Assembly: GCF_900496995.4 (NCBI RefSeq)
Contig: NC_044012.1
Coordinates: 22,792,759-22,856,758, forward strand
Origin: Aquila chrysaetos chrysaetos
Lineage: Eukaryota; Chordata; Aves; Accipitriformes; Accipitridae
Direction: 5' to 3'
DNA: 64,000 nt
Part shown: piece after piece, positions 26,247 to 53,526 of the stretch
How positions within the stretch are numbered: the first letter of the stretch is position 1
How the letters are laid out: each line of letters opens with the position of its first letter
Notes under the pieces: generated by a model
What the model saw: the letters and a program-made list of their open reading frames with translations, nothing else
Database searches by the model: none
What the model was told of the DNA's origin: nothing
Made by a program: the position numbers and the translations under genes

Positions 26247-29200
26247 TCACCAAGGAATAGCTTTACCTTCCCAGTTGAGCAGAGTCCCGCTGTGTTTCTC
26301 GGAGAGGATCAGCAGTACAGACAGCAGCCCCCGCACACTCGTGTCCACCGTCAGGTCAGCCTGCAACGGGTGTAAATGAGGAGCAGGACTGAGACACCAC
26401 TGTCCTTCTCAGCCATCCACCAGCACCCACGCAGCTCATGCACATTGGCAGCAAGGCTCCTTCCACCCAGCCTGAGTAGAGAGCCACAGGAGGTGGGATA
26501 AGCCTGTTACGTGGGAGGATGGTTGGGTATCTGCATGCTCACTGATGGCTTGGATGGAGGTGGCTTGGGCTGGGAAGCCAGCTACAGGTTTAACTCAATA
26601 GGACACAAAAGAGATCGCCGCTGCAAGCGGGATGCTATGTGCAGCCTTCTCAGAACTCCAGGGTTGCAGCGACCACCCCCACCCCAAAACAAGGATCCTG
26701 CAGGATGAGTAGAGACCTCATGGACCCGCAGCTCTTCAAGGAACGGGGCACAGGATGGGGTGGTGCTGCTGCTCCTCCCCTCCCTGCTCTGTCAAATTCA
26801 GGTTCCCTGCACATCTCCAGGCTGCCCAAAGCCCTTTCCCCCTGGACAGGCCTCCTGCTCACCCCGGATATGTGCTGATACTATTTCCCAGGCAGCACCC
26901 ACGTTCTGGAGTGGCCCAGCACAGACGCAGGCAACTTGTAGCCCAAAAGGCAGCTCATTCTCGCATGGATCCCTCCTCCTGGGAGCCATCTCAGCCACCT
27001 GAGGCACCCCCTGTGCAAATTTGTAGGCTTGGGTCCCACCCATGGGTTCCCCCCTCAACCTGCTCAGCCAGAACTCACCTCCTGGCTGCCCATATCGGTT
27101 TTCACCCAGCCGGGGTGAAGTGCCACGCAGAGGATCCCGGCTTCCCCGTAGGTCAGAGCCTGACACTTGGTGAGCATGTTGAGGGCAGCCTGGGGGAAGA
27201 AGGAAGCATCAGCCATGGGCAGTAGAAGGCTCCATATATCAGGCTCCCCACCCATCACTGCCTCATGGCAAGGGAGAAAAAGCAATGCCAAGTCTTCAAG
27301 AGATAGTGCGTACCTCCTCTAGGTGGGCAACAGCTGGGCATGGAGATGCCCAGGGAACTTGGACAGTGATCAGCATGGATCAGTCCCTCCATTTCGTGAT
27401 CTCAGGTGCTTCCCTGAGATCAGGCCTGGTAAGGGGCAGCTCTGACTCCCACCAAGCTCATGAGCACAGGCAGGTCCCCAGTCTCCATACCTTGCTACAG
27501 CGGTAGGAGATCACAGGCTTGAAGAAGGACTCGGGAGTTTTCTCAATGGACCCCATGATGGTGGAGATGTTGATGATGGCTGCCTTGCTGCAACTCAGTC
27601 CCTTTTCTGTGCTCTCCCGGGCAGCCTTCTTCAACAGGGGCAGGAATGCCTGGGGAGAAGGAACCTTGTGGAATGCCTGTGCCTCGAGCCTGCCCCACTT
27701 ATGGCAACTGCAACCCAGGCTGCCTATGGCAGGGAGGATGAGGAAGAACAGCAGGAAGCCAAGAGAGCCCAGCTGTTTTGCTGCAGCGGCCCTGCCTGCT
27801 CCCAGTTAGCCCAGCACAACACAGGGAGGCTACAGAGGGCTTGGGCTGGGACCGCAGCCCTAGCACTGCCCCCTCCCTCCCACAGCCCCAAGAAACTCTG
27901 AGATCTCCATCGTGACCACGGACAGCCTGGGATAGCCTCCAGCTGGGCCAAATTCCCCCTCCACGGTGAGCTCCATCCCCAGAGCTTCATCCATACCTGG
28001 GCCATCAGCATTGGCCCCACCGCATTGGTCTTGTATGTCCTTATCATCTCTTCAGCATCTACCGTCTCCAGTGATGCTGTCGGGGTGTAGATGCCAGCAT
28101 TGTTTATTAGCAGGTTCAAGCCCGTGCCATTCAGCTTCCCCTCCACGATCTTCACTGCATCAGTAATAGCGGAGGGATTTGCAACATCTGCAATGGAAGA
28201 GAACAGGGTTTGAGAGCCATGGGGTCCAGCTGGGGGACCAGGGGAGGAGGAGGTTAAGATGCTGAGGAACAGCTATGCAACGCGACCTGTGTGGCCTTCC
28301 TTCCATCTGTGGGCACCAGATGGTGCTGTGCAACCAGCTCAGAGCACCCCAGCACCCACCAGTCCCAGCTGATCCCAAAACTGCCTCCTCTGCCATGCAC
28401 AGGGTGCCCCACTACCAGCAGCTGAAGGATCCTGCCCTGGGGCAGCCCACCGGGCAAAGCCACCCTGGGGACAGCCCCATGCTGTGTCAGGCACCAGCAG
28501 CCACAGCCTCCTGTCTGTTGACAAAGTCCCTGCCTGAGCAAGCTCTGGAGAACCCCAGGGGAGGCTTGAGGGGGGGGGGACACGACAGTCCCCACAGGGG
28601 ATGTGCTGGGACCTGCTGTGGGATGGCTCTGCAAGGTCCTACAGCTCCTGCTCAAGCTCTGGGCCGATCACACAGCTTTTCCACAGGCTGTCTTCCTCCT
28701 GGAGCCCTCCTGGTCTCGCCTGGGACTTGGGATCAGCTGCATGGCAGAGCAAGGATGCAGCCACTTGGCTGGGGGAGCTGAGGACCACACAGGATGGATC
28801 TCAGGGACCTCCTGGTTCTGTGGCCACGGGGCAAGGAGGTGCGGGGAATGGGCTACTGGGGCTGATACAGGTCTGGAGAAGCTGGGCTTTTGGCAGCAGG
28901 ACTTGAAGCAGCTCTGAGGAACTGGATCCCCATGTAGACCCTGAAGGGAGGGAAGGAGAAACGGGGTAAGCGCGGCCAGCAGCCACAGATTTACCAGCTC
29001 AGAGGCAGAGCACACCTACCCAGCTTCACAAGAACCAGGTTTGGGTGTTTGGATGCCAGATCTCTCAGCTCCTACAAAAAGAGATAGGGAAACAATCAGC
29101 ACTAGGCAGAGGCGATGCCAAGCATCATCCTGGGGCACTGGCAATGGTCCACCCTGAGGGAAACATTTGCAGATGTTACTCAGTGCTTGTGAATGGCTGC

Positions 29201-40424: not shown

Positions 40425-42851
40425 ATGGGAGAGCTTCATGTCCGCTCCCTTCTGGTGACTGGGGCCAACCGGGGAATTGGCCTGGAGCTTGTGCGGCAGT
40501 TCCTGGGGATGCCAAGCCCACCCGCATGGGTCTTTGCAGCTTGTCGGGACCCCAAGGGACAGCGAGTGCAGGTGAGGCTGGGCTGGGACGCAGTGGGTTG
40601 TGCTGGGGGACAAAGGGACAGGGCAGCAGGTCGGAGCACAGGGGGCTGCAGCCGGGCACCCCAAGTCCTGCAGGACAGGGCAGCCATGTTGGGACACCCC
40701 TGAGATGAGCTGTTCATGGGATGTGTAGAGGGCACAGGGCTCCTCTGGGACAAAAGTGGCAACTTGCTGCTTCCCATCTACTCAAGGGCTTGAGGCAAAG
40801 GGCTTGTGTCTGCCACGGCAGGGTGGGATGTGAAGCAGTGGCACGTGGTGCATGCAAGAGGCACGGAGCCCCATCCATCGGGAGCAGGGCAGCCGGAGCA
40901 GGGTGCTGGGCATGAGGTGGTGCAGGACAGAGACAAAGTGACACGGGCTTTGCCTGGGAAAGGCTGAGCCTCTGTGCAGCCAGTCCAGCCTCGCCGTGCC
41001 CACACAGTCCCCTCTCTTGCAGGAGTTACAGAATTTGGCCTCCAAGCACCCCAACCTGGTCATCATCCCACTCGGTAGGTGCCCTGAGGTGGGGAGTCCC
41101 TTGCCCTGGTTCGCCTGGAGAGTGCCCGGGCGCTGCGCACACCCAGGGAGCCCTGTGCCATGAGGGAGCTGTGCCGACGGGACACTGGGCACTGCCATCC
41201 CTCCTGCCCATGGCCAGCCCCGAGGCCACGTCCCTGGGGGGACACAAGGGCCTCCAAGTCACCACAGGGGTGTGGGCACTGACCTGCCCTTTGTTGGCTC
41301 TGCAGAAGTCACTGACCCCGCCAGCATCAAGGCAGCTGCAGCCAGAGTTGGGGAGCACCTGGGGGGCTCAGGGCTGAACCTCCTCATCAACAACGCTGGA
41401 ATTGCAAAGGCGAGCTCACTTGATAACGAGACGCTGGAGAACATGACCCAGATTTACACCACCAACACAGTTGGGCCCCTGTTGCTGGGCCAGGTGAGAC
41501 CATCAACCCTGGAACTGCAGCGCAGCTCTGGGGAGCATCTCTTCCCGTGGCCCTGGCTTCCTGAGCTGGGTCGTCCCGGGGGGCACGAAGGGCTGCTGGG
41601 AGAGGGTCCTGGCTCCGCTCCAGTGCTGATGGACTCTCACTCAACAAGAAGCTCATGGAGCTGTGAGCTGGAGCTCAGGACCTGGAGCCTGGGGGGCTGG
41701 GGCAGCGCGAAGAGGAGGGAAGATGCTCCGGTGCTGGCGCCAATGTTGCCTGCTGGGGAAGGAGCTGGCCCTTGTCCCTGTGCCACCTCTGTGCATGGCC
41801 CTATCTCCTCTCTTCTCACAGGCGTTCCTGCCCTTGCTGAAGAAGGCTGCCCAGGGGAGCCCGGGCTCAGCACTGAACTGCAGCAAGGCAGCCATCATCA
41901 ACATGTCCAGCTCTGCAGGCTCCATTGAGGAAGTCTTTTTATGGAATTATGGACAAGTTGTCTCATACCGCTGCAGCAAGGTATTGCCACACTGCACCAG
42001 GTGTAAGCCCAGACACTTTCCTCTCCAAATGATCTCGCATGCCTTCCAACCTCCCCCTCAGTCCCTGCACCTCTCTGCACTGTGACTGTGCTCCCGTCAG
42101 TCACTGGGTCCCTCCCAGGAACATTCCTGTGCCTGGCCCTGGGTCCCACCTCAGAGGGATGTGCTGGGATGGGCCCTCGGCTGGGCTGGGCGTCTGCATG
42201 GGGATAGTGCAGCAGCACTATGTGCCCTGGGGAACTGGCTCCACCCGCCCTTCCCTGCCCCAGCCGCGGGGTCCGGACATGTCCCCTTGCAGCCACCCTT
42301 TCCCTCCCACCACCATCCCTGCCGCATTTCCCCACAGGCTGCTCTGAACATGCTGACCAAGTGCCAGTCCCTGGGGTACCGGGAGCATGGCATCCTCTGC
42401 GCTGCTCTCCACCCTGGCTGGGTGCAAACCAACATGGGGGGCTCAGGATCACAAAAGGTAAGAGAGCTTTTTGGTCTGGAAGAACTTTTTATTTGCGAAT
42501 GCAGAGCTTGCTGTGGATTGAACAGTCCCAGACATGCTGGGCTCTGGGGGAATTCTTTGGCAGATACCCTGAGCTGGAGGTGTATGAGGGAAGGAGAGAC
42601 GGGGAACTCTTCTTGCCCTATGCTGGCCTCTCCTCACTCACTCCAGAGAACCCCAAGCCCTGAGCAATGATCTACTCCAGGGCAGACCTTAGCCAGGTCT
42701 TTGACACGTGGCTGTGTTTCTCCTTGTGCCCCTGCAGCCCCCTGTGAGAGTGGATGAGAGCGTGCGAGGGATGCTGAAGGTGCTCTCCTCCCTCTCCGAG
42801 AAGGAGACTGGGACCTTCCTGGACTGGGAGGGGAAGGTTGTGCCCTGGTGA
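40425..42851 (+). CDS. SDR-B: C-factor/Sniffer-type short-chain dehydrogenase/reductase
   Basis: Paralogue of SDR-A and a probable carbonyl reductase. Six exons: 40425-40571, 41023-41074, 41306-41493, 41822-41980, 42338-42457 and 42738-42851, every junction GT/AG with phases 0,1,0,0,0. The protein has 259 residues beginning MGELHVRSLLVTGANRGIG. Motifs are TGANRGIG (12-19), NNAG (95-98), a serine cluster in NMSSSAGS (156-163), YRCSK (178-182) and the C-terminal WEGKVVPW shared in form with SDR-A (WEGKAIPW). Exon lengths equal those of SDR-A except exon 3 (188 against 191) and exon 5 (120 against 111). All catalytic residues I expect are present, so it looks functional. Substrate unknown; no symbol assigned. 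Confidence 0.93.
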
Positions 42852-43069: not shown

Positions 43070-43620
43070 GTCCTTTGACTGGGGGTCTGGCCATCATCCT
43101 GGTAGGGCTTTGTCCCTGGGCACAGAGGGACTCATCCCACAGCTCTCCCTTTGAATGGCAGCACAACCTTCTGATGCATCAGTCGCTGCTCCCAGTGAAC
43201 CCTTCCTTGTTTGTAAGAACAAGGGCCAGCAGAGCACAGCTCCTCCTTGGCTCCTCTATCACATGTGTCAGGAAGTTATCACCAATGCCCTCTGGGAACC
43301 TCCTGGGTTGCTTATGTCCTGCTGCGTTGTCCCTCCAGCAGATATCAGGGTGGTTAAAATACCCCATGAAGACCAGGACCTGCAAACATGAGGCTACTTC
43401 TAGCTGTCTGTAGAAGGCCTCATGCACTTGTTCCTCCTGATCAGGCAGCCTACAGCAGACACCCACTACAATGATACCCATCCCAGTCTTTTCCTTAATC
43501 CTGACCCATAAGCTCCCAGTTGGCTCATCACTCATCCCCAGGCAGAGCTACATGCATTCCTGCTGCTCTCTCACATAAAGGGAAAACCCATAAAGACCCC
43601 CACCAGTGTCCCAGGACTGA
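43070..43620 (-). mobile_element. CR1 LINE ORF2 fragment (endonuclease region)
   Basis: On the minus strand, 43179-43535 is open and encodes a peptide with VGVCCRLPDQEEQVHEAFYR, then VFMGYFNHPDICWRDNAAGH and LTHVIEEPRR. These are hallmark stretches of the CR1 endonuclease domain (VGVCYRPPDQEEEV..., GDFNHPDICW, ...LTNKEG). The canonical GDFNHP is GYFNHP here. Neighbouring sequence to about 43600 continues the homology in other frames, so the copy is decayed. The ends are approximate. It separates SDR-B from the CCDC81-like gene. Confidence 0.88.
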
Positions 43621-44109: not shown

Positions 44110-47100
44110 ATGGAAAACCTGTGGCCGGATGCATTTCCAACACTCAAGAATCTCACCTCCAGTGGTGAGGCTTGCAGAAGTTATTTTCTGAATGTTATAG
44201 ACAGTATTAACTATGAAAGTAGCTGTAGAAACACAGGGGCTTTTGGGGGAAGACTGGACATGGCTGATGGGTACAACAAGAGCCCTGTCTGATCATCCCT
44301 CCCTGGCTTAGGGATCATTTTGGCAGCCAGGATTCCCAGGTCCTCTTCCTGAGGACCTTCCTCTGCCCTTGCCTTGCTGCCCACTCCCCAGGTCAAAGCC
44401 CCTGGCACCAAGGGTTGCTTCCTGCCTTGCAAAGGGGATTGCCCACACGGAGCTCCCAGCCACAGTGGCCATGCAGAGTCGATGAGCACAGAGGGCTGAC
44501 AGTGGTCCCTGCAGGGGAGATACATGGGGTCCCCTGAGCCTCCGAGCCCTCTGTGGACACTACACCATCCTCTCGCTGGTGTGTACATCTATTCTACATC
44601 TCCTGTCTTGTGGAGCACCTTACATGTTTTCAATTGGGGTGGCAATACATTTAATCTCACTCATCATCTCCTTGGGTAAGAGTGTGCTGAAGGGTTGTGA
44701 GCTTGCTAACTTGGAGCATGACACATCTTTCGCTTGCTTTCCAGAGATCCTTATGATTTGGGACAGCGTGTCGGAATGCATTAGACAGCACTTGGCACAG
44801 GATAGGGTGGGTCTTGCATCCTCTTCCTCCCCTTGTGAAACCCTGAGGGCTTGCCTTGTCCGGACAATGCTGTGCCACCAAGTGCCATCACTTCCCCACT
44901 CTGAAAGCAGAAGCAGTCGCCTGGTAGGACACTGCTGTCAACAAACATGGCACAGACCAGCTTCTCTGGCACCTGTGATAAAAATGAAAGTCCAGATGAA
45001 GTAGAAGAAAGTGTTAAGCACTTTCTGGGTCTTCTCTCATCTCCAGTGCCAGAATGGGAAGACCATACCCTGGTGCCTCTTTAAGGGTTTGTTGGAAACC
45101 CTTCCCATTTTATCTAGGGGAGGGATGTCAGCTCTGTTGTCACTTTTCCCAAAAGCTTTCTTCTGCAGAGCAGAGGAGAAAGAGCAAAAAAGACCTGGAG
45201 TACATGCTTTCTCTCCAAAGCTTCCTCAGTGTCCCATCCTGGCCTTTGTAGGCTCAGGGTGGGCAATGCACAAGGCAGCATCCCCATGCTCTGGCAGTCA
45301 TTGGATACTTATGATTGTTCCTTCTTTTTACCTCCACTGTTCTCAGGGTGTCCGACCGTTAGGAATCGGGACATTCTATGTTCTTAAAGACTACATGCAC
45401 ACTGTGAACAGCGAGGTTTCGATTGTTCGGAGACCCATGTTTCATATGTCCAAGGTGGTTGCAGATGAATGTAACCTCAGCTACGCTGAAGAAGATGTTC
45501 CTGGTAAGAAGATGGATTAGAACATTTGCCTGCCCTTGCACCACCCTTGAGGCGTATGCTAACCACTGTTAAGGCGTGACTGAATGCCTAAAGGTGTCCT
45601 GAGAACAGCCTCAGCTTGTTCAAGCTGAACAGGCCACCAAAGAGCAATTTCTTGGAAAGACCCATTGGGTGTCCTTTTTTCATGATATGCCTTCAGCTGG
45701 AGGATGTCTTCTTTAATTGCTTTCACGCTTGGCTCCATATCATTCATGGTTAGGAATGTTAGGACTACTGCTTTCAGACTAATTTATTGGATCTGATATT
45801 TCTGATGAAACTGAGATAAAGCTCATGGTCTGCCTTTATGGTGCTGCCTATCTACTTGTAAGGGAAACGGCCGGAGTTCCTACTGGCTCATGGTCTGCCT
45901 TTATGGTGCTGCCTATCTACTTGTAAGGGAAACGGCCGGAGTTCCTACTGGCTCTTACAGGCTCCTTCTAGAGCAAAGTGGGTACAAGTCACTTGTAGAC
46001 ACACCAGAACCAAAGATGAGGACAAGAGTTTGTGGAAGGACTCATGGATGGCCAGATCTGCCATGGCTTCTGCTCAATGCGGCTGCAGTGTGACATGGAT
46101 GATGCTGTGGGGTAGGAAGAGCTTGGGTCTGTGTTTGGAGGGGCTCTTCTTTTTCACGTGACCCCATCTTCCATGTGATTGAAACATCAGGTGGGTGTCT
46201 GGGTATGAGGGGCAGGGGGACAGAAGTATGCTGCTGTGCAGTCCTTGCATTTTGCTCCTCCATGGCTTCTCCATGAGTCTGGCACAGACTTAGTGGGAGT
46301 GCACTGGGTGTGGGCACACTTGTGGCCGAGCGCCATGGACTTTGTCGTGGGATCTGCACCTGTCTCCCCTGCCCTCCCACACAGTGTTCATCCCCCAGGC
46401 ACTCTTAGGAGCTGCTGGCATGAGATTCAACAGACTGCTCTGTAGCAGTGTCCTGCCTGAAGCTGCTGACACCTTCTTGGAGCCTATGCTGTCCTGCTGC
46501 AGAGATGATTTTGTTCCTCTTTTTCTGTTCTCTAGCTGATGTAACAGTCGTCCCTCTGAGGTGTGAGGAGCTCTCCGTGTGTGCCCAACTACCTTTTACA
46601 ACAGTGCAATGTTGTGTATATGAGACTGTGACATCATTCTTTCGGGCCACCTCTAAAAGACAGGACACAGACTTTGTCTTCAAGTCCATCGGCATTCTTT
46701 CCATAAGAAACAGGGAAGTCACTATGAGATTTTTTGATGACTTTCTCCTCACTGTGGATGGCACTGGAAAGCTGCTGGAAGCCCTTCTCAGTGTGAGTTG
46801 ATCCCTTCCCTGTGCTATACCTCATCCTTCCGGACACCTGTCAAAGGATGACTGACCTGATTTCTGGTGGCCTGTCAGGACCCTCCCAGCCACTGGGGCG
46901 GTCATGGTCTACAGCAGTGCCAACTCTGTAGTGTCCTGCTCTCCTACGCAGTGGTATAGTTGACATAGAGAATCCAGGAAGAGTCACCTAGAGTTAGATC
47001 AAGGCTCTACCTAGCCCAGCATCCCACTTTCTGTCGTAGAAACGATAATGGTGGGGCTTTGATGGGTACAAAAGTAGAAACTGTCTATGGAAAGAGTGCC

Positions 47101-50100
47101 AAGACATGGGGACATGCCCATTACATGTCCCATCCTACTTCAGCCCTCACAGAAAGATAAGGTTTAGTTCCCCTGCATGTTAACAGTCCTGGGGTGACCT
47201 TACTGCTTTTGAATCAACTTCTTGGACCACGTTTGGGATGCTGGCGCAGCAGCTTCAGTTCCCCATATTCCTGTTGTGAACCTGAGAGATGGCAGCTTGC
47301 ATGGGGCAACATGTGGCAGTGTTATTGCTCCTTGCCAACTCTGAGCTGTGCAGCTTCTTCCTGAAAAGCTGAGGGGCTCATATTAGCCAAAGAAAACTTC
47401 GTTATAGTATGTCTGAGTGGCCATGTCTTCTCTGAGAAGAAGACAACTTTATAAGCAAGGTAAAAATGTCCCTTGAATGCTCTCACATATCTGTCTCTGT
47501 TTCAGACCTCAGGGAGGAGACATCTGGTGGTATCAGGCAGAGAAAGTCTTGATTTTCACATGGGTCCTGGCAGTGTCTTCTTGTTGCCACAGTAAGTTTG
47601 CTTCTCATTGGTTGAGGAACTGAGGCAACATTTTCCATAAGGTTTCGCCTGATCCATCTCTTTCTTCTGGGTGCAATTTCAAAATGGAAAGATCCCAGAA
47701 TTTCCTAAACATGGATTGTACAGGAAAAGTGTCCTTGAGTGGGTACCAGATTCATACAAGTCCTGTGTTTGCCACAGAGCCATGCCTTTGGTGAGACTTG
47801 AGGGCCCCAAGTGCCCCTAAATGCCTGGTTCCTGAGTCCCTGGGGGACAGGAGGAGTGATTTCCCCTCCTGTACTTGAGTGGGGTTCTTCAGAGTTCTGA
47901 CCTGAGTCTGGGGCTGCTCGTTAGTGTGCTTAATGGCCATGGGGATGGTGGTTATGCCCTGACATGAGCCTGAGAAGGTCTGCAAGAGAGCTGCAGGGAA
48001 GGGTTAGAATTCAAGCTAACATTGGCCAGTTGGTTAAAGAGAGAGTAGTCTGTTCTCCATGTGCATGAACAGGAAGAGGAGATGAGAGATGGCCTTCAGT
48101 GAGGGAGTCAAGTTTTTCAGTTAGGATTGGGAAGCCCTGAAGCAGACTGATGGGACCTCTCATGTGCTCCCAAGCCACGGACATCTTGATTGTGTGACTG
48201 TTTCCTAACACAGCTCTCTGCTTTGGAAAGCAGCAGCTTGAGAGACCTTCTCAAGTGTCTCCATGACTGCATTGTTGATGGAAGATGCAAAGGGAATGTG
48301 GTAGCCCTTTCTTCAATCCGGCATCTTCTCATTTCGAGGTTTGATTTTACACTTCCCTCTGAGAAAGAAGCCCTGGAATGTCCCTCTGTAGGACCTCTGA
48401 AGGCCACAGAAGACAGGGAGGAGGAGGAAGAGAAGAAGGAGAAGGAGGAAGAAGAGGGTGATAAGCAAATTAAGACTGGTGGTAATGTCACATTTGACTT
48501 GTGAGAGAGCCGTGTGTGTGTGTGTGTGGGCACGAGTGCTTGTATGTGGGTGTTCCTTTAGTCATCAGCAGTAGGTGGTTGAAGCCAAGGCCAAAACGTG
48601 GTGCTCTGGGAGGGAAGACTGCATCTCTTGTGTCTCACTGTACACAAGCTCAAGTTACTCACTATGGAAGAAGACCTCATGGCAACACACTTTCCCCCAG
48701 GGCTCTGTGCCCTGGTATATATTGCGAGTAGCTCCTTCATTTTAGGAAGTTCTGCCTTGAGCTGCCAAGGGTAGAGGGGTCTACCTCTCCCACAGATCCT
48801 GTGCACTTGAATGTGGGGAGAAAAATTGCCTGGAGATGAGTTTTAAGAGGCTGATATGCTGTGCCAAAGTCCTCCTAGAGAGCAAGACCTCTTTGAGATG
48901 ATGATGTCAAGGGAATTGGATTGTTTTATCAGATGCTGGAGCTGATCTGCATGTCATTCTTGTTAAATAGCCCCAAAGATGTGCTCTGAAGAGTCTTCCT
49001 CTTGGATAGTTCCAGAGAGTCCTCCTACTGAACGTCTCCTTTCTCGAGGAAGGCAGTCTTGGTCTCCGTCCACGCTATCTGGCCTGAAGAAGGGAAAGGG
49101 GCAGGAAGGCAAAGGAAGAAGGTCACCTGGCAGGTGAGCCTCATGGACAAATGGAGGAGGGTGACCCTGTGTTCTTTGATTTCTTGAATGAGTTGTTCCC
49201 TTTGTATGCAGTGTTGGTATTGTCTCTGAAGGATTGTTCAGGTTTGTCATGGTGACTGATATTTGTGTGAAGAATTACTCCAGGAACTGAGGAAATGTTT
49301 CTCCTTCCTTTTTGATGTCTATGAACCTCCTCTTATTTCAGCATAAATGATGCCGCTTTTCAAAGAAAAATGAAATTCAGAACATCTTCCCCCAGCAAGA
49401 CAGAGCAGTGTCTGTGTTCACTGTTTTCTACCTTGCATTCAGTCAGCTGGAGGACTCTGATTTAATTCCAAATCTGGTGGTCAGGGCAGGTTGTCTGGCA
49501 CAGGAGGAGTGCCAGAGAGAGCTAATCAACAGCTTTGCTTTTCTCCCTCAAACACTTCCTCCTTCTCCTGCACTGGCTGCCCCCAAAATACAGCCTTTAG
49601 TGTGTGACCACCACAGTGCAGTTCACAGGAGGAGGGTCACGGTCCCTCCAGGCTGTGGTTATTGCAAAAGTCACTGTTGTTCTCATTGTTCCCTCAAGAT
49701 GGGGACCACGTGTGTGTGTTACAGCTCATGTGAGTGCTACAACTCAAGGTTTTCTTCCTCCACTGTTGACACGAAACCAAGTAGCCAAATACACCCAACC
49801 CTCCCTCAGAACTGACATCTGCTGCAGAGGCTGGCACTGAGCTACTCGTGAGCACAAGATGAAGAACAGCCTCATCCCGTACCCATATCAGCTCACCCTC
49901 TTGGCTATTTTCAGCTTTCTGCCAAGAATTCAGGTGGTGGAAAAGGACAGCAAGCACAAGCAAACTCTCAGTGTCAGACCTCAAACCACACTTCCCGTTT
50001 TCAGAAATGAAAAGAGGATGTCTCCATCACACCAGGAAACCAGTCCTCAGGTCAGGGTTTGGATCAGCTCCAGGAGGGGCTAAAATGGGATATGGGTGGA

Positions 50101-51048
50101 GGTCCCATGGGATACTGGACAGGGTCATTGAGGGCTCTTGGTGCCCTCAGGGCCTCCAACTCCTCCAACCAAGCCATCTTCGTGGTTTGTGTGCTCTGAC
50201 CTGCTGAAGGATTTAATCTCACGGTTCCTGCTCTGAAAAACTGCCATTCCCTCCCCTCATTTACCTCATCATGAGTGAGGTCAGCATAAGAGTGTGGGGC
50301 CAGTGGGGAACAGATGTCCCCCCCCAACCCTGAGGGCTGTGCTGGGGTGATTCTCCTGGTTCCTCTGCTACTGCTGCAGGTCCCTGCCCAGGGCGGTTTG
50401 TCCCATAGGGGTTTCTGAGGGTGGAGCAGAACATGCTGGAGGGCTGCACAGACCCTGTAGCCACTGGCATCTCCACTGCTGAATGTTCAGAGCACCTGAG
50501 GGAGGTGAGAAGCCTCCTAAAAATCATCCTCTGGCACCAATGCAGGCTAGGTGGTCTCAGGAAACATTGACAGAGATTTGGCCATGGTCCCCACTGCCAT
50601 CGATTGGGAAAGAGGAGAGGACTGCTCCCTTCCTACACAGAGCCACGGTGAAGAAGAAGCTGGAGAGTCTGCAGGGGCTACACAAACTGAACATGTTCAC
50701 CAACCTCAGCCCAGGAAACTTGAGCAGAAGCACCTGTCCGAGGCGTGAAGGACTCCAACTCCGGAGCTCTGGGGCTGGGTACGGCATCGTCCCCTTTCCC
50801 ATGACCTGGCTTAGACCCTCATGCCAGGCAGCCCCAAGTTGCCTCCAAGTTGAAGGCAGTGGGAAGGCAGGAGGGTCTCAGCCAGAAGGTGAGAGACACT
50901 TTTCTCTTGCTGTTGCAGCCAGCTTTCTGTGCGAGCAAACTACACCCTGCAACTCTTGGAGACTTACCACACGCGTCGGGAAGAGTGGAGCAGGAGAGTA
51001 GAGCTGAATCAGCAGAGGAATTACGAAGAGACTCAGTTATTCTGGTAA
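44110..51048 (+). CDS. CCDC81-like protein with two tandem HU-like domains
   Basis: Ten exons join in one phase-consistent frame of 462 residues: 44110-44164, 44745-44806, 45347-45503, 46536-46792, 47506-47591, 48231-48481, 48971-49133, 49915-50050, 50409-50504 and 50923-51048. Residues about 19-91 form the first HU-like domain (EILMIWDSVSECI, GIGTFYVL, RRPMF), and 92-177 the second (DFVFKSIGILSIRNREVTMRFF), both in the order found in CCDC81. Exon 6 adds an acidic/lysine-rich stretch, exon 7 a Ser/Pro/basic one, exon 8 FLPRIQVVEKDSKHK, which recalls the linker after HU2, and the last exon REEWSRRVELNQQRNYEETQ, which recalls the CCDC81 C-terminus. Human CCDC81 is about 650 residues; the long coiled coil and cysteine-rich end are missing. 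CCDC81 acts at centrosomes and basal bodies; the role of this bird copy is unknown. Exons 1-5 and 10 are firm, 6-9 less so. Confidence 0.75.
45821..45950. repeat. Perfect 65-bp tandem duplication
   Basis: The 65-bp unit starting GCTCATGGTCTGCC at 45821 is repeated without any difference at 45886-45950, and a third copy starts with GCTC only. It lies in intron 3 of the CCDC81-like gene. Identity implies a very recent event or an assembly join. Confidence 0.95.
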
Positions 51049-51540
51049 AACTCTCCAGCTATGGATGGTGTCTCCCCATCCCCTGCAGTGCCCTTCCCTC
51101 CACAACCAGGAGCACACAGAGGAAGGGTGCTGGCACCCTCGTGGAAGGACAACAGGCTTGGGAGGTTGGCACCTGGGCTGAGGCACCCTGCCATCCATGG
51201 GCCAGCTCTTGGACCCTGTAGGATTTCTGGATGAGCAGAAAGTTGTGGGTGGCCAAAGAGTGAAGGATTCCTCTGGTGCTTTCTAACTAGACACCGAGAC
51301 ACCTTGCCCTGTGGGTCAATGCTTACTTGGTCCAAAGTCTTTTCTTTTGCCCGACCCATCCCCAGGCTGACTGCCTGCACATGGGACCTTGTCATTGCCT
51401 CAGGTGCGGGGTCCTGTGTCCCATCATAGAAAGTATGGAAACGCCAGAGGAAGCAGATCCCATAATATCCAGCCTGAACTAAGCCCATAGCATTTCTGTG
51501 CCTTCCTTCCAGTGCAATAAAACCAAACTGTTCCTCCTTA
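51049..51540 (+). terminator. 3' UTR and poly(A) signal of CCDC81-like gene
   Basis: After the TAA at 51046-51048, an AATAAA hexamer occurs at 51516-51521 (GTGCAATAAAACC), giving a 3' UTR of roughly 0.5 kb. A weaker ATTAAA at 51707-51712 follows and could serve a longer transcript. Confidence 0.55.
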
Positions 51541-53526
51541 ATGCCACAGCATTGGGCAGCAGATGACTCTCCGGGATCCAAGGGAAAGGTATCTGGACTT
51601 CTGGCAGAACAGAGGACACGTGAATATGATGGGGAAGTCTGTAAACATGGTCCTGAGCCCTCCCAGGGATGGCAGGCCCCCCCATCTCTGTCTCTTCTAT
51701 ATTCCTATTAAATCCAGTCTCCACCTCTCTTCTGGGTGGCTCTGCTCCCTCTTCCGAGCTGGTGTGCAGAGCCAGGGTGGGGTCTCAGTGCCATGTACGT
51801 TTCCATGGGGCACATGTGGCTCTGGGGGCTCCAGGCTGAGCAGAGATGTCCACAGGGGCTCTGGGACTCAGCAAGGGGCTGATGGAGCAGGGTGAGGGAC
51901 CCGATGGGCACATGGGGGCCCTGGGGTCCATGCAGGGCTTGGGGGCACCAAGCCTCACCCACTGCATATCCTGTGGTGTGTGGAGGGATGGGGAGGAGGA
52001 AGGTGGTGGGGTGGGCCCCAGGGGTCCATAGGCTGCCCAGGACATGGAGCAGGGAGCTCTTGCCCTCACCAAGTCCTTCCCTCTCCACTAGCACTGAGCC
52101 CAGCCTGTGCTGGGGCCAAAACCAGCAAAAGCAGCTCTGGAGTCACCAAAGCCCTTTCTCAAAGGTGTAAAATTGGGAGTGATGTAGAGGTGTTTCTTTC
52201 ATGATTAATGAATACAAAGGCTGTGTTTTAACATAGGGATGAAGAACATGGGACCCTCAACCATGCCTCCCACCTTGGCCGAGTGGGATGTACACAGGAT
52301 AGCTCCAACACAGGGCACATAGGACCATTTTGATGTCCCTGTTTGGGCATCTGGGGTGTTTCGGGCAAGCATCAGCAGGGAGAGAAAATCAGGGATAGGA
52401 TGGCTCTGGGAGAACAAAGTCCTGGCCCTCCCATCCTCACCAGAGGTAAGGCCATTTCTTCTCCAAGGGAGGAGAAAGCCCCAGTGAGGAGCAAAGGAAG
52501 AGGGGATCAGACTGGCATTGGATCCATCTCTCTTGGCCAATTTCAACCCTGGGCCATCTCGTACCACCCAGTCACACCTCTGTGGTGCAGACCCGGTCAT
52601 AAACAGGCTAAAAGGACAGAAAATTAGGTTTCCTTTCCAAACCAGGCAGGAGCAAAAAGCCTAGAGGTGGAAAGGGTAGGCAGCACTGACCAACACAACC
52701 CATCAGCTGGGCTATCGGAGGGCAAAAATAGAATGGGGGGAGGATTAAAAGTGTCACAGAAGCAGTTGGAGGGGCAGTTTGGGGTGAAAACTAAGGGTTC
52801 AGAGGCAGACCTCAGTGTCAGCACAAACGCTGGAGACACGAGCTTGGAGGATGATACCCCAAACCAAGGAGCCCCGCAAGGCTGAGCCCAGCCAGGAGGC
52901 TCAGCCCAACCATGCTGCCTGCCCTGGGCTTCCCTGAGCGATGCTGCCAGGGAACGATTTCTCTGCAGGGACCACAGCCAGGCAGGGAGATGGCAGTGGG
53001 ACCCCAGGGATGTTGGATGAGGTGCCCTGGGGACATCCTGGGTTACCTGGACCTCCTGGCCCAGGTCCTTCCCACAGCATCACTCAGCTTCCCATGGAGC
53101 TCCTCGTGCCATTTGCCATATTTTAAACTGAATTGCCACAAACTTCTTGTATCACGCATTTAAAGTGGCATAAAATTACTTAATTACGCACCTCTTGTAT
53201 AATTCAGACTTAGCTGAAACTACTATAGCTCTAAATTTGCTGTATTATAGCATGATGCCCCCATGGCATGATATCCCCTTGACAGTGCTGTCCTTTACAG
53301 CAGCCTCAGTCCCTGCATGCCATCCCAGCATTGCCAGGGTTTTGCACAGTTTAGGGCCCTGTTCCAGACTGCTGAGGCTTCAAGCAGCAGCATCCAGGTC
53401 CGCTCGTAGCTGCCTGAATAAAATAGTGTGGATTTGTTCGCCAGGCTGTGCTAGGTGCCCCGTGCCAGGGTAGGGGACGGTGCAGGCGCTCTCCTCCCCA
53501 TGGACCTGGCATGTGGCAGGACTTCT
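51541..53526. other. Intergenic DNA before the tRNA cluster
   Basis: About 2 kb with no recognised gene. A plus-strand open frame at 51563-51895 follows a CCACAG acceptor-like site and is listed under findings. An AT-rich stretch lies at 53125-53265. Otherwise I see nothing in it. Confidence 0.4.

Follow-up and report, generated by a model that had tools for sequence, protein, structure and literature searches.

A golden eagle CCDC81-clade gene with a conserved pair of HU domains and a replaced C-terminal half: a candidate protein-docking adaptor

What is the role of a bird CCDC81-like protein that carries the two HU domains of the family and a C-terminal half of another kind? The question is raised by a predicted gene of the golden eagle, Aquila chrysaetos chrysaetos, found in a stretch of 64,000 nucleotides (C9:22792759-22856758, hereafter the window) and extending over positions 44110-51048 of its forward strand; genome searches were run on the 1.23-Gb assembly of this bird. 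A first, sequence-only reading had described it as one of the bird paralogues of CCDC81. Burroughs et al. 2017 reportedly found the CCDC81 HU clade expanded in birds and suggested a role in non-self recognition. The answer we favour, to which we give slightly under an even chance, is that the protein would serve as a protein-docking adaptor on a ciliary or sperm-tail microtubule structure and not as a DNA binder.

The eagle gene model comprises ten exons with GT donors and AG acceptors, the phases of which close on 473 codons followed by a stop (Table 1). The start at 44110, the stop at 51048, the number of exons and the closing phases were correctly given by the sequence-only reading; its length of 463 codons was replaced by 473 with homologue-supported splice sites. 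The splice sites of exons 6, 8 and 9 could be settled because the catalogued protein P0008 (Aquila chrysaetos, LOC115345731, "uncharacterized") is identical letter for letter to residues 196-473 of the model and because the penguin protein P0002 aligns with it, spanning all 473 residues at 83% identity. A preliminary model of 436 residues (exon 6 from 48231, exon 8 from 50005, exon 9 at 50641-50744) was dropped, P0008 and P0002 having fixed other splice sites. P0008 is without the HU half; the eagle catalogue entry is half a gene. Intron sequence around exon 6 that can be aligned to P0010 contains stops and frame shifts in the window, the exon itself being clean. Two further observations were made at the locus. 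In intron 3, 65 bases are duplicated in tandem and exactly (45822-45951), and at 51292-52309 the penguin P0002 and hummingbird P0003 models extend into the eagle 3' flank, the 3' end varying by species or by model.

Profile searches of the 473-residue protein recovered both CCDC81 HU domains, PF18289 (HU2) with 60.8 bits and PF14908 (HU1) with 33.9 bits, above a Pfam cut-off of 26.1 for each; the check that the sequence-only reading had named gave matches to both profiles, and the GIGTF, RRPMF and FKSIGILSIRN signatures it had listed are all present. Sea urchin CCDC81 (P0011) matches residues 9-175 with an expectation value (E) of 1.7e-29. The sole significant match among solved structures is CCDC81 in 8snb, which we take to be a sperm doublet microtubule structure (E 2.3e-25 for the preliminary model, 1.9e-29 for penguin P0002); with the family profile, Tetrahymena CCDC81B (8v3l) is matched as well, over the HU part, at E 1.1e-8. 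Because close relatives are present in seven other bird species and the urchin protein matches, the gene model is not due to chance, and the gene appears to be a bird paralogue of the CCDC81 clade rather than a chance resemblance. At 19 residues the HU1 hairpin is as long as that of canonical CCDC81, for example in the urchin; the HU2 hairpin, read from the sequence, has about 8. The bacterial DNA-binding profile PF00216 (Bac_DNA_binding) gave no match at E 1 in the eagle protein and reached 15.4 bits in P0001 and 14.4 bits in P0002 (cut-off 22.4). Since the HU1 hairpin is of canonical length and the protein falls short of the DNA-binding HU profile, we infer a protein-docking HU pair. A DUF5555 match in the preliminary model was below cut-off, a phage DNA search gave no match, and Pfam on ten selected open reading frames of the window returned only two short-chain dehydrogenase pieces.

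When the HU half was compared with 5.8 billion proteins, 8 of 936 candidates were returned, from seven bird species that we take to be all Neoaves; the preliminary full-length model had returned 10 proteins of 7,995 scored, the additional two being the eagle catalogue entry and an unnamed protein. The HU-half search gave no chicken or duck match, which is weak evidence because the search requires shared five-residue words. Identity to the eagle HU half is 96% in Accipiter (P0001), 93% in penguin (P0002), 79% in godwit and 78% in hummingbird (P0003), and 85% in P0005 over the part present there. The tails of the bird orthologues can be aligned to the eagle tail. By parts, identity to penguin, hummingbird and gull is 93, 78 and 85% in the HU half, 82, 54 and 73% in the middle, and 86, 80 and 83% in the terminal segment; the middle is less conserved than either the HU half or the terminal segment. 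P0001-P0003 and P0005 are apparently products of the same gene, and the locus appears to be conserved in the other sampled Neoaves.

For comparison with canonical CCDC81, 30 of 130 proteins were aligned (7 bird and 23 canonical, a few of them partial). The canonical rows were drawn from 120 of 392 matches; those named are all invertebrate, and the comparisons contain no vertebrate canonical CCDC81. Between urchin, amphioxus, coral, brachiopod and oyster, canonical HU halves share 57-72% identity, whilst the eagle HU half is 28-31% identical to those of the same five invertebrates. A midpoint-rooted tree of 21 rows unites the canonical proteins (100/100); their branch measures 0.70 and their tips 0.085-0.23. 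In the group of the eagle gene (six rows, 100/100), the stem is 0.91 changes per site long and the tips are 0.008-0.16. The nearest eagle copy, L018, is weakly placed (85/75); long branches meet in this tree, which makes the order among the eagle copies uncertain. Left out of the tree were a blank Exaiptasia row, 11 near-identical eagle copies, the partial or weak L021-L030 (relic L022 included), and P0005, P0006 and P0008-P0010. Conservation across the 23 canonical rows reaches 95% or more at 69 HU positions. No bird row departs from the canonical residue at 19 of the 39 core-type positions among them, versus 6 of the 30 polar ones (P 0.022). One new residue is common to all bird rows at 17 of the 30 polar versus 5 of the 39 core-type positions (P 0.00018). 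Adding the row of the window protein left all position counts unchanged.

The C-terminal half is of another kind. The CYLC motif and the GESN end, found in 22 and 20 of the 23 canonical rows respectively, occur in none of the seven bird rows and are also absent from the eagle window protein. Against six canonical CCDC81s, the eagle tail and C-terminus gave nothing significant (best E 0.21) and the coiled-coil half could not be aligned, which agrees with the loss of the coiled coil and the C-terminal end proposed from the sequence alone. When the 473-residue protein was searched against the eagle genome, 34 matches were obtained at E<=1 (50 candidates scored). Ten are its own exons and the 24 others all fall within residues 20-179; the tail was matched nowhere else at E 1. 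The middle segment has 226 residues and an isoelectric point (pI) of 9.2, and reads as acidic first, then rich in Ser, Arg and Lys. The penguin tail has a weak match to CFAP100 (E 0.016).

A course of events that would account for these features can be proposed. A CCDC81 copy may have diverged fast before the split of the sampled Neoaves; its HU-pair fold would have been retained while many conserved polar residues were exchanged, after which the sequence would have been frozen. An exchange of polar residues followed by freezing would point to a new or altered binding partner, and the acidic-then-basic tail might replace the coiled coil as a second contact. As to where such contacts may be made, several papers give the following for relatives. 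CCDC81b lies at the Tetrahymena axoneme inner junction (PMC11961760) and its signal marks the proximal axoneme (PMC12399478); IJ34, called a CCDC81 homologue, stabilises CFAP52 at the inner junction (PMC10105768); a ram and buck sperm proteome lists CCDC81 (PMC10218022); and HOOK1 is a CCDC81 partner (PMC8471410). By analogy with these relatives, the eagle protein is best read as an HU pair that docks proteins and has been neofunctionalised, with a probable place in cilia or flagella.

Several points weigh against this placement. The ciliary role would be a transfer from relatives that share about 30% identity with the eagle protein, and the exchange of polar residues argues that partners may have changed. 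The canonical group is also found on a branch of 0.70, and the support for the place of the eagle gene among the eagle copies (85/75) is weak; the core and polar classes were defined by residue type only, and the P values ignore the relatedness of the rows. Finally, in three papers a CCDC81 or CCDC81-like transcript is raised 1.7-fold in spleen lymphocytes of vaccinated chickens (PMC3620231), present in embryonic chicken wing and pectoral tissue (PMC10863267) and reported in goose hypothalamus with P 0.088 (PMC11450866), the family member not being established in any of the three.

A full change of partner could even have taken the protein out of cilia, so that it would act as a docking adaptor elsewhere, for example as a nuclear or cytoplasmic scaffold. 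The new residue fixed in all bird rows at more than half of the conserved polar positions, the tail without a match in canonical CCDC81 or elsewhere in the genome and the basic middle segment would all suit such a move. However, no sequence signal names such a place and the relatives of known location are ciliary, and we regard a role outside cilia as unlikely.

The other copies in the eagle genome bear on a different possibility. PF18289 matched the genome 32 times at E<=10; 25 matches are over the cut-off and 20 cover at least 73 of the 75 positions without a stop (on C1, C90 (3), C122, C20 (2), C143 (2), C6, C19 (2), C137, C37 (4) and C9 (3, including the eagle gene)). In the control search of 14 genomes, 7 match at E 10 and none over the cut-off. 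These numbers bear out the large bird expansion of the clade that the sequence-only reading had cited, and together with the two HU domains over cut-off they uphold the description of the gene as a paralogue within it. The contigs C122, C137 and C143 are short (35-62 kb), and their copies may repeat the clusters. A search with PF14908 gave no match in the eagle genome, as the domain is presumably split by introns. Eleven near-identical copies differ from the reference HU2 exon of their own cluster at 0 to 4 of 255-258 bases. The ratio of non-synonymous to synonymous substitution rates (dN/dS), computed on HU2 exons of the family within the eagle genome, is 0.31-0.48 in the eight pairs, out of ten, that allowed its computation, five of these eight having a synonymous rate (dS) >1. 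The HU2 exons thus appear to be under somewhat relaxed purifying selection, and at this coarse resolution nothing suggests an arms race. Of the tree and selection analysis that had been suggested for the copies, the tree placed the eagle gene only weakly among them, and dN/dS was obtained for the HU2 exons.

Copies that are clustered, near-identical within clusters and strongly divergent between them have the layout of many defence families, and the HU pairs could form a bird defence repertoire that recognises non-self nucleic acids or proteins; one report names CCDC81 as a transcript that is up in the spleen lymphocytes of chickens after vaccination (PMC3620231). We hold this to be improbable. 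The HU halves of eagle and penguin share 93% identity, HU2 dN/dS stays at the values given above (with the same five dS values >1), HU1 has the canonical hairpin of 19 residues and the bacterial DNA-binding HU model is under its cut-off. The non-self role raised by the sequence-only reading gets little support, since no second copy of the tail was seen among the candidates scored, the HU half and the terminal segment are the best conserved parts and HU2 dN/dS lies at 0.31-0.48.

That the gene is a decaying duplicate or a prediction artefact from which no working protein is made is very improbable: the catalogue models (P0001, P0002, P0003, P0008; several labelled "uncharacterized") do disagree on the frame of exon 9 and on the 3' end, the eagle one omits the HU half and the gene model is a prediction, but all ten exons are open with closing phases, the HU half and the terminal segment are conserved in penguin, gull and hummingbird, and the stops and frame shifts relative to P0010 lie in the intron flanking exon 6 and none in the exon.

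If the eagle protein is a docking adaptor with an altered partner, the state of the canonical gene in the same genome becomes of interest. Urchin CCDC81 gave 35 matches in the eagle genome at E<=10 (46 candidates), the HU matches being at most 42% identical. Outside the HU part there are weak matches to a pair of loci at C19:19.82 Mb (residues 355-408, E ~0.09), to C3 (residues 615-687, E 0.43, two stops) and to C7 (residues 351-392, E 1.05, one stop), and three at E >2. This search of the assembly revealed no intact canonical CCDC81. A canonical gene at 50% identity or more is expected to be visible if assembled, because the same search finds HU2 copies at 26-42%; vertebrate CCDC81 is, we assume, about 60% identical to the urchin protein in the HU part. 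We take HIKESHI to be a neighbour of CCDC81 in human gene order, and the malic enzyme gene ME3 to be the other. HIKESHI gave one match in the eagle genome, on C19 (21.456-21.468 Mb), and with the human protein as query all five coding exons were placed there (minus strand, 21467529 to 21456427); the eagle gene, being on C9, does not lie beside it. On the same strand, the coding exons of HIKESHI are followed at a distance of about 1.1 kb by an HU1 exon that extends to 21455371 and then by an HU2 exon at 21454843-21454593 (minus strand) whose translation requires two frames. Over 120 kb near HIKESHI no further CCDC81 exon was detected, save one chance-level match (E 0.62). The HU2 frameshift adjoins a short T run, and an assembly error is therefore possible. 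A scan of 120 kb for six short motifs, mostly those of malic enzymes, gave no match, which leaves HIKESHI as the sole marker of the site; this copy probably marks the ancestral CCDC81 site.

Loss of canonical CCDC81 in the eagle is thus a strong lead, not proof. As the copy beside HIKESHI looks broken, the golden eagle may not fit a scheme in which a normal CCDC81 is accompanied by one additional copy. It is conceivable, though rather doubtful, that the golden eagle lineage lost the ciliary CCDC81, which otherwise evolves slowly, and relies on a family that diverged fast; the gene described here would be a Neoaves member of that family, with an HU pair re-surfaced for a new partner and then frozen. 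In the tandem pair at C19:19.82 Mb, L031 (4716-4772; C19:19.8377 Mb) holds a CYLC-like segment, QEVCYLCMQRDERNL, as in canonical CCDC81, and its twin at C19:19.825 Mb matches the same urchin residues. These two are candidates for keeping the old CCDC81 role.

The bird expansion is reportedly already in print (Burroughs et al. 2017, a work cited in PMC12068299). In the literature searched on CCDC81, its bird form and the HU superfamily, no title naming the eagle gene or a CCDC81 loss in birds was found. As far as the searches show, the following are new: the corrected whole gene, its conservation in the Neoaves sampled, the polar positions exchanged and then fixed, and an eagle assembly from which an intact canonical CCDC81 is apparently missing. 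If the same holds in other birds, a structural protein of the cilium would have been taken apart in one lineage and built up anew as a family, and whether bird sperm or cilia changed along with CCDC81 becomes a direct question.

Table 1. Exons of the eagle gene and other features (positions in the window unless a contig is given)
Feature	Position	Strand	Evidence
Exon 1	44110..44164	+	Start codon, MENLWPDAF..., donor GTGAGG, phase-consistent; P0001, P0002 and P0003 align from residue 1
Exon 2, first part of HU domain 1	44745..44806	+	Splice sites, bird-protein tblastn matches, Pfam
Exon 3, HU domain 1 (GIGTF, RRPMF)	45347..45503	+	PF14908 residues 7-83, 33.9 bits; splice sites
Exon 4, HU domain 2 (FKSIGILSIRN)	46536..46792	+	PF18289 residues 96-169, 60.8 bits; bird-protein tblastn matches
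Exon 5, end of the HU-linked segment	47506..47591	+	Aligns with ...VLPRI of urchin CCDC81
Exon 6, acidic stretch	48339..48481	+	Splice site set by P0008 identity
Exon 7, Ser/Arg/Lys-rich segment	48971..49133	+	P0008 identity
Exon 8	49915..50050	+	P0008 identity
Exon 9	50546..50778	+	P0008 identity
Exon 10 with stop, terminal segment	50919..51048	+	80-86% identity to penguin, hummingbird and gull
Short-chain dehydrogenase exons (C-factor-like), upstream neighbour	41305..42526	+	tblastn of P0007 residues 34-212; PF00106 9.7e-7 on 41164-41925
Frameshifted, incomplete CCDC81-like copy, loci L022/L041	C19:21454593-21455371	-	Beside HIKESHI

Around the gene, C-factor-like short-chain dehydrogenase exons are also present at 27088-28188 (minus strand), so that there are apparently at least two copies nearby. 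The crane protein P0007 (Grus japonensis) joins a dehydrogenase, CCDC81-like HU exons and a further end, which we take to resemble retroviral sequence. It is probably a fused gene prediction, as adjacency of a dehydrogenase and a CCDC81-like gene would explain. Just upstream of the eagle gene, an open frame at 43182-43547 (minus strand) gave no Pfam match and presumably resembles an endonuclease fragment of a long interspersed nuclear element (LINE, CR1-like).

The eagle gene can be set against known systems. The other eagle HU2 copies (C1, C6, C9:27.4 Mb and the C19, C20, C37 and C90 clusters) have the same HU pair and appear to share purifying selection; in contrast, their HU2 is 22-42% identical to that of the eagle gene, and the 24 matches elsewhere come without the tail. 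Bacterial HU/IHF is a remote relative, the HU structure 5eka being reached at E 0.73 with the family profile. Bacterial HU/IHF carries a long DNA-grasping arm; the eagle HU2 hairpin of about 8 residues is without it. Tetrahymena CCDC81b and IJ34 are CCDC81 relatives that serve as structural inner-junction proteins of the axoneme, although CCDC81B is far longer (1535 residues). Canonical CCDC81 of S. purpuratus (8snb_1K, P0011) is larger (696 versus 473 residues), its HU half is 30% identical to that of the eagle, and it has the CYLC motif, the GESN end and a coiled coil to which nothing in the eagle protein can be aligned. Nevertheless, both proteins have HU1 and HU2 in the same order and a 19-residue HU1 hairpin, and W24, G47, F49, R68, P69, F71, G144, L146, M155 and F157 are kept in the eagle gene.

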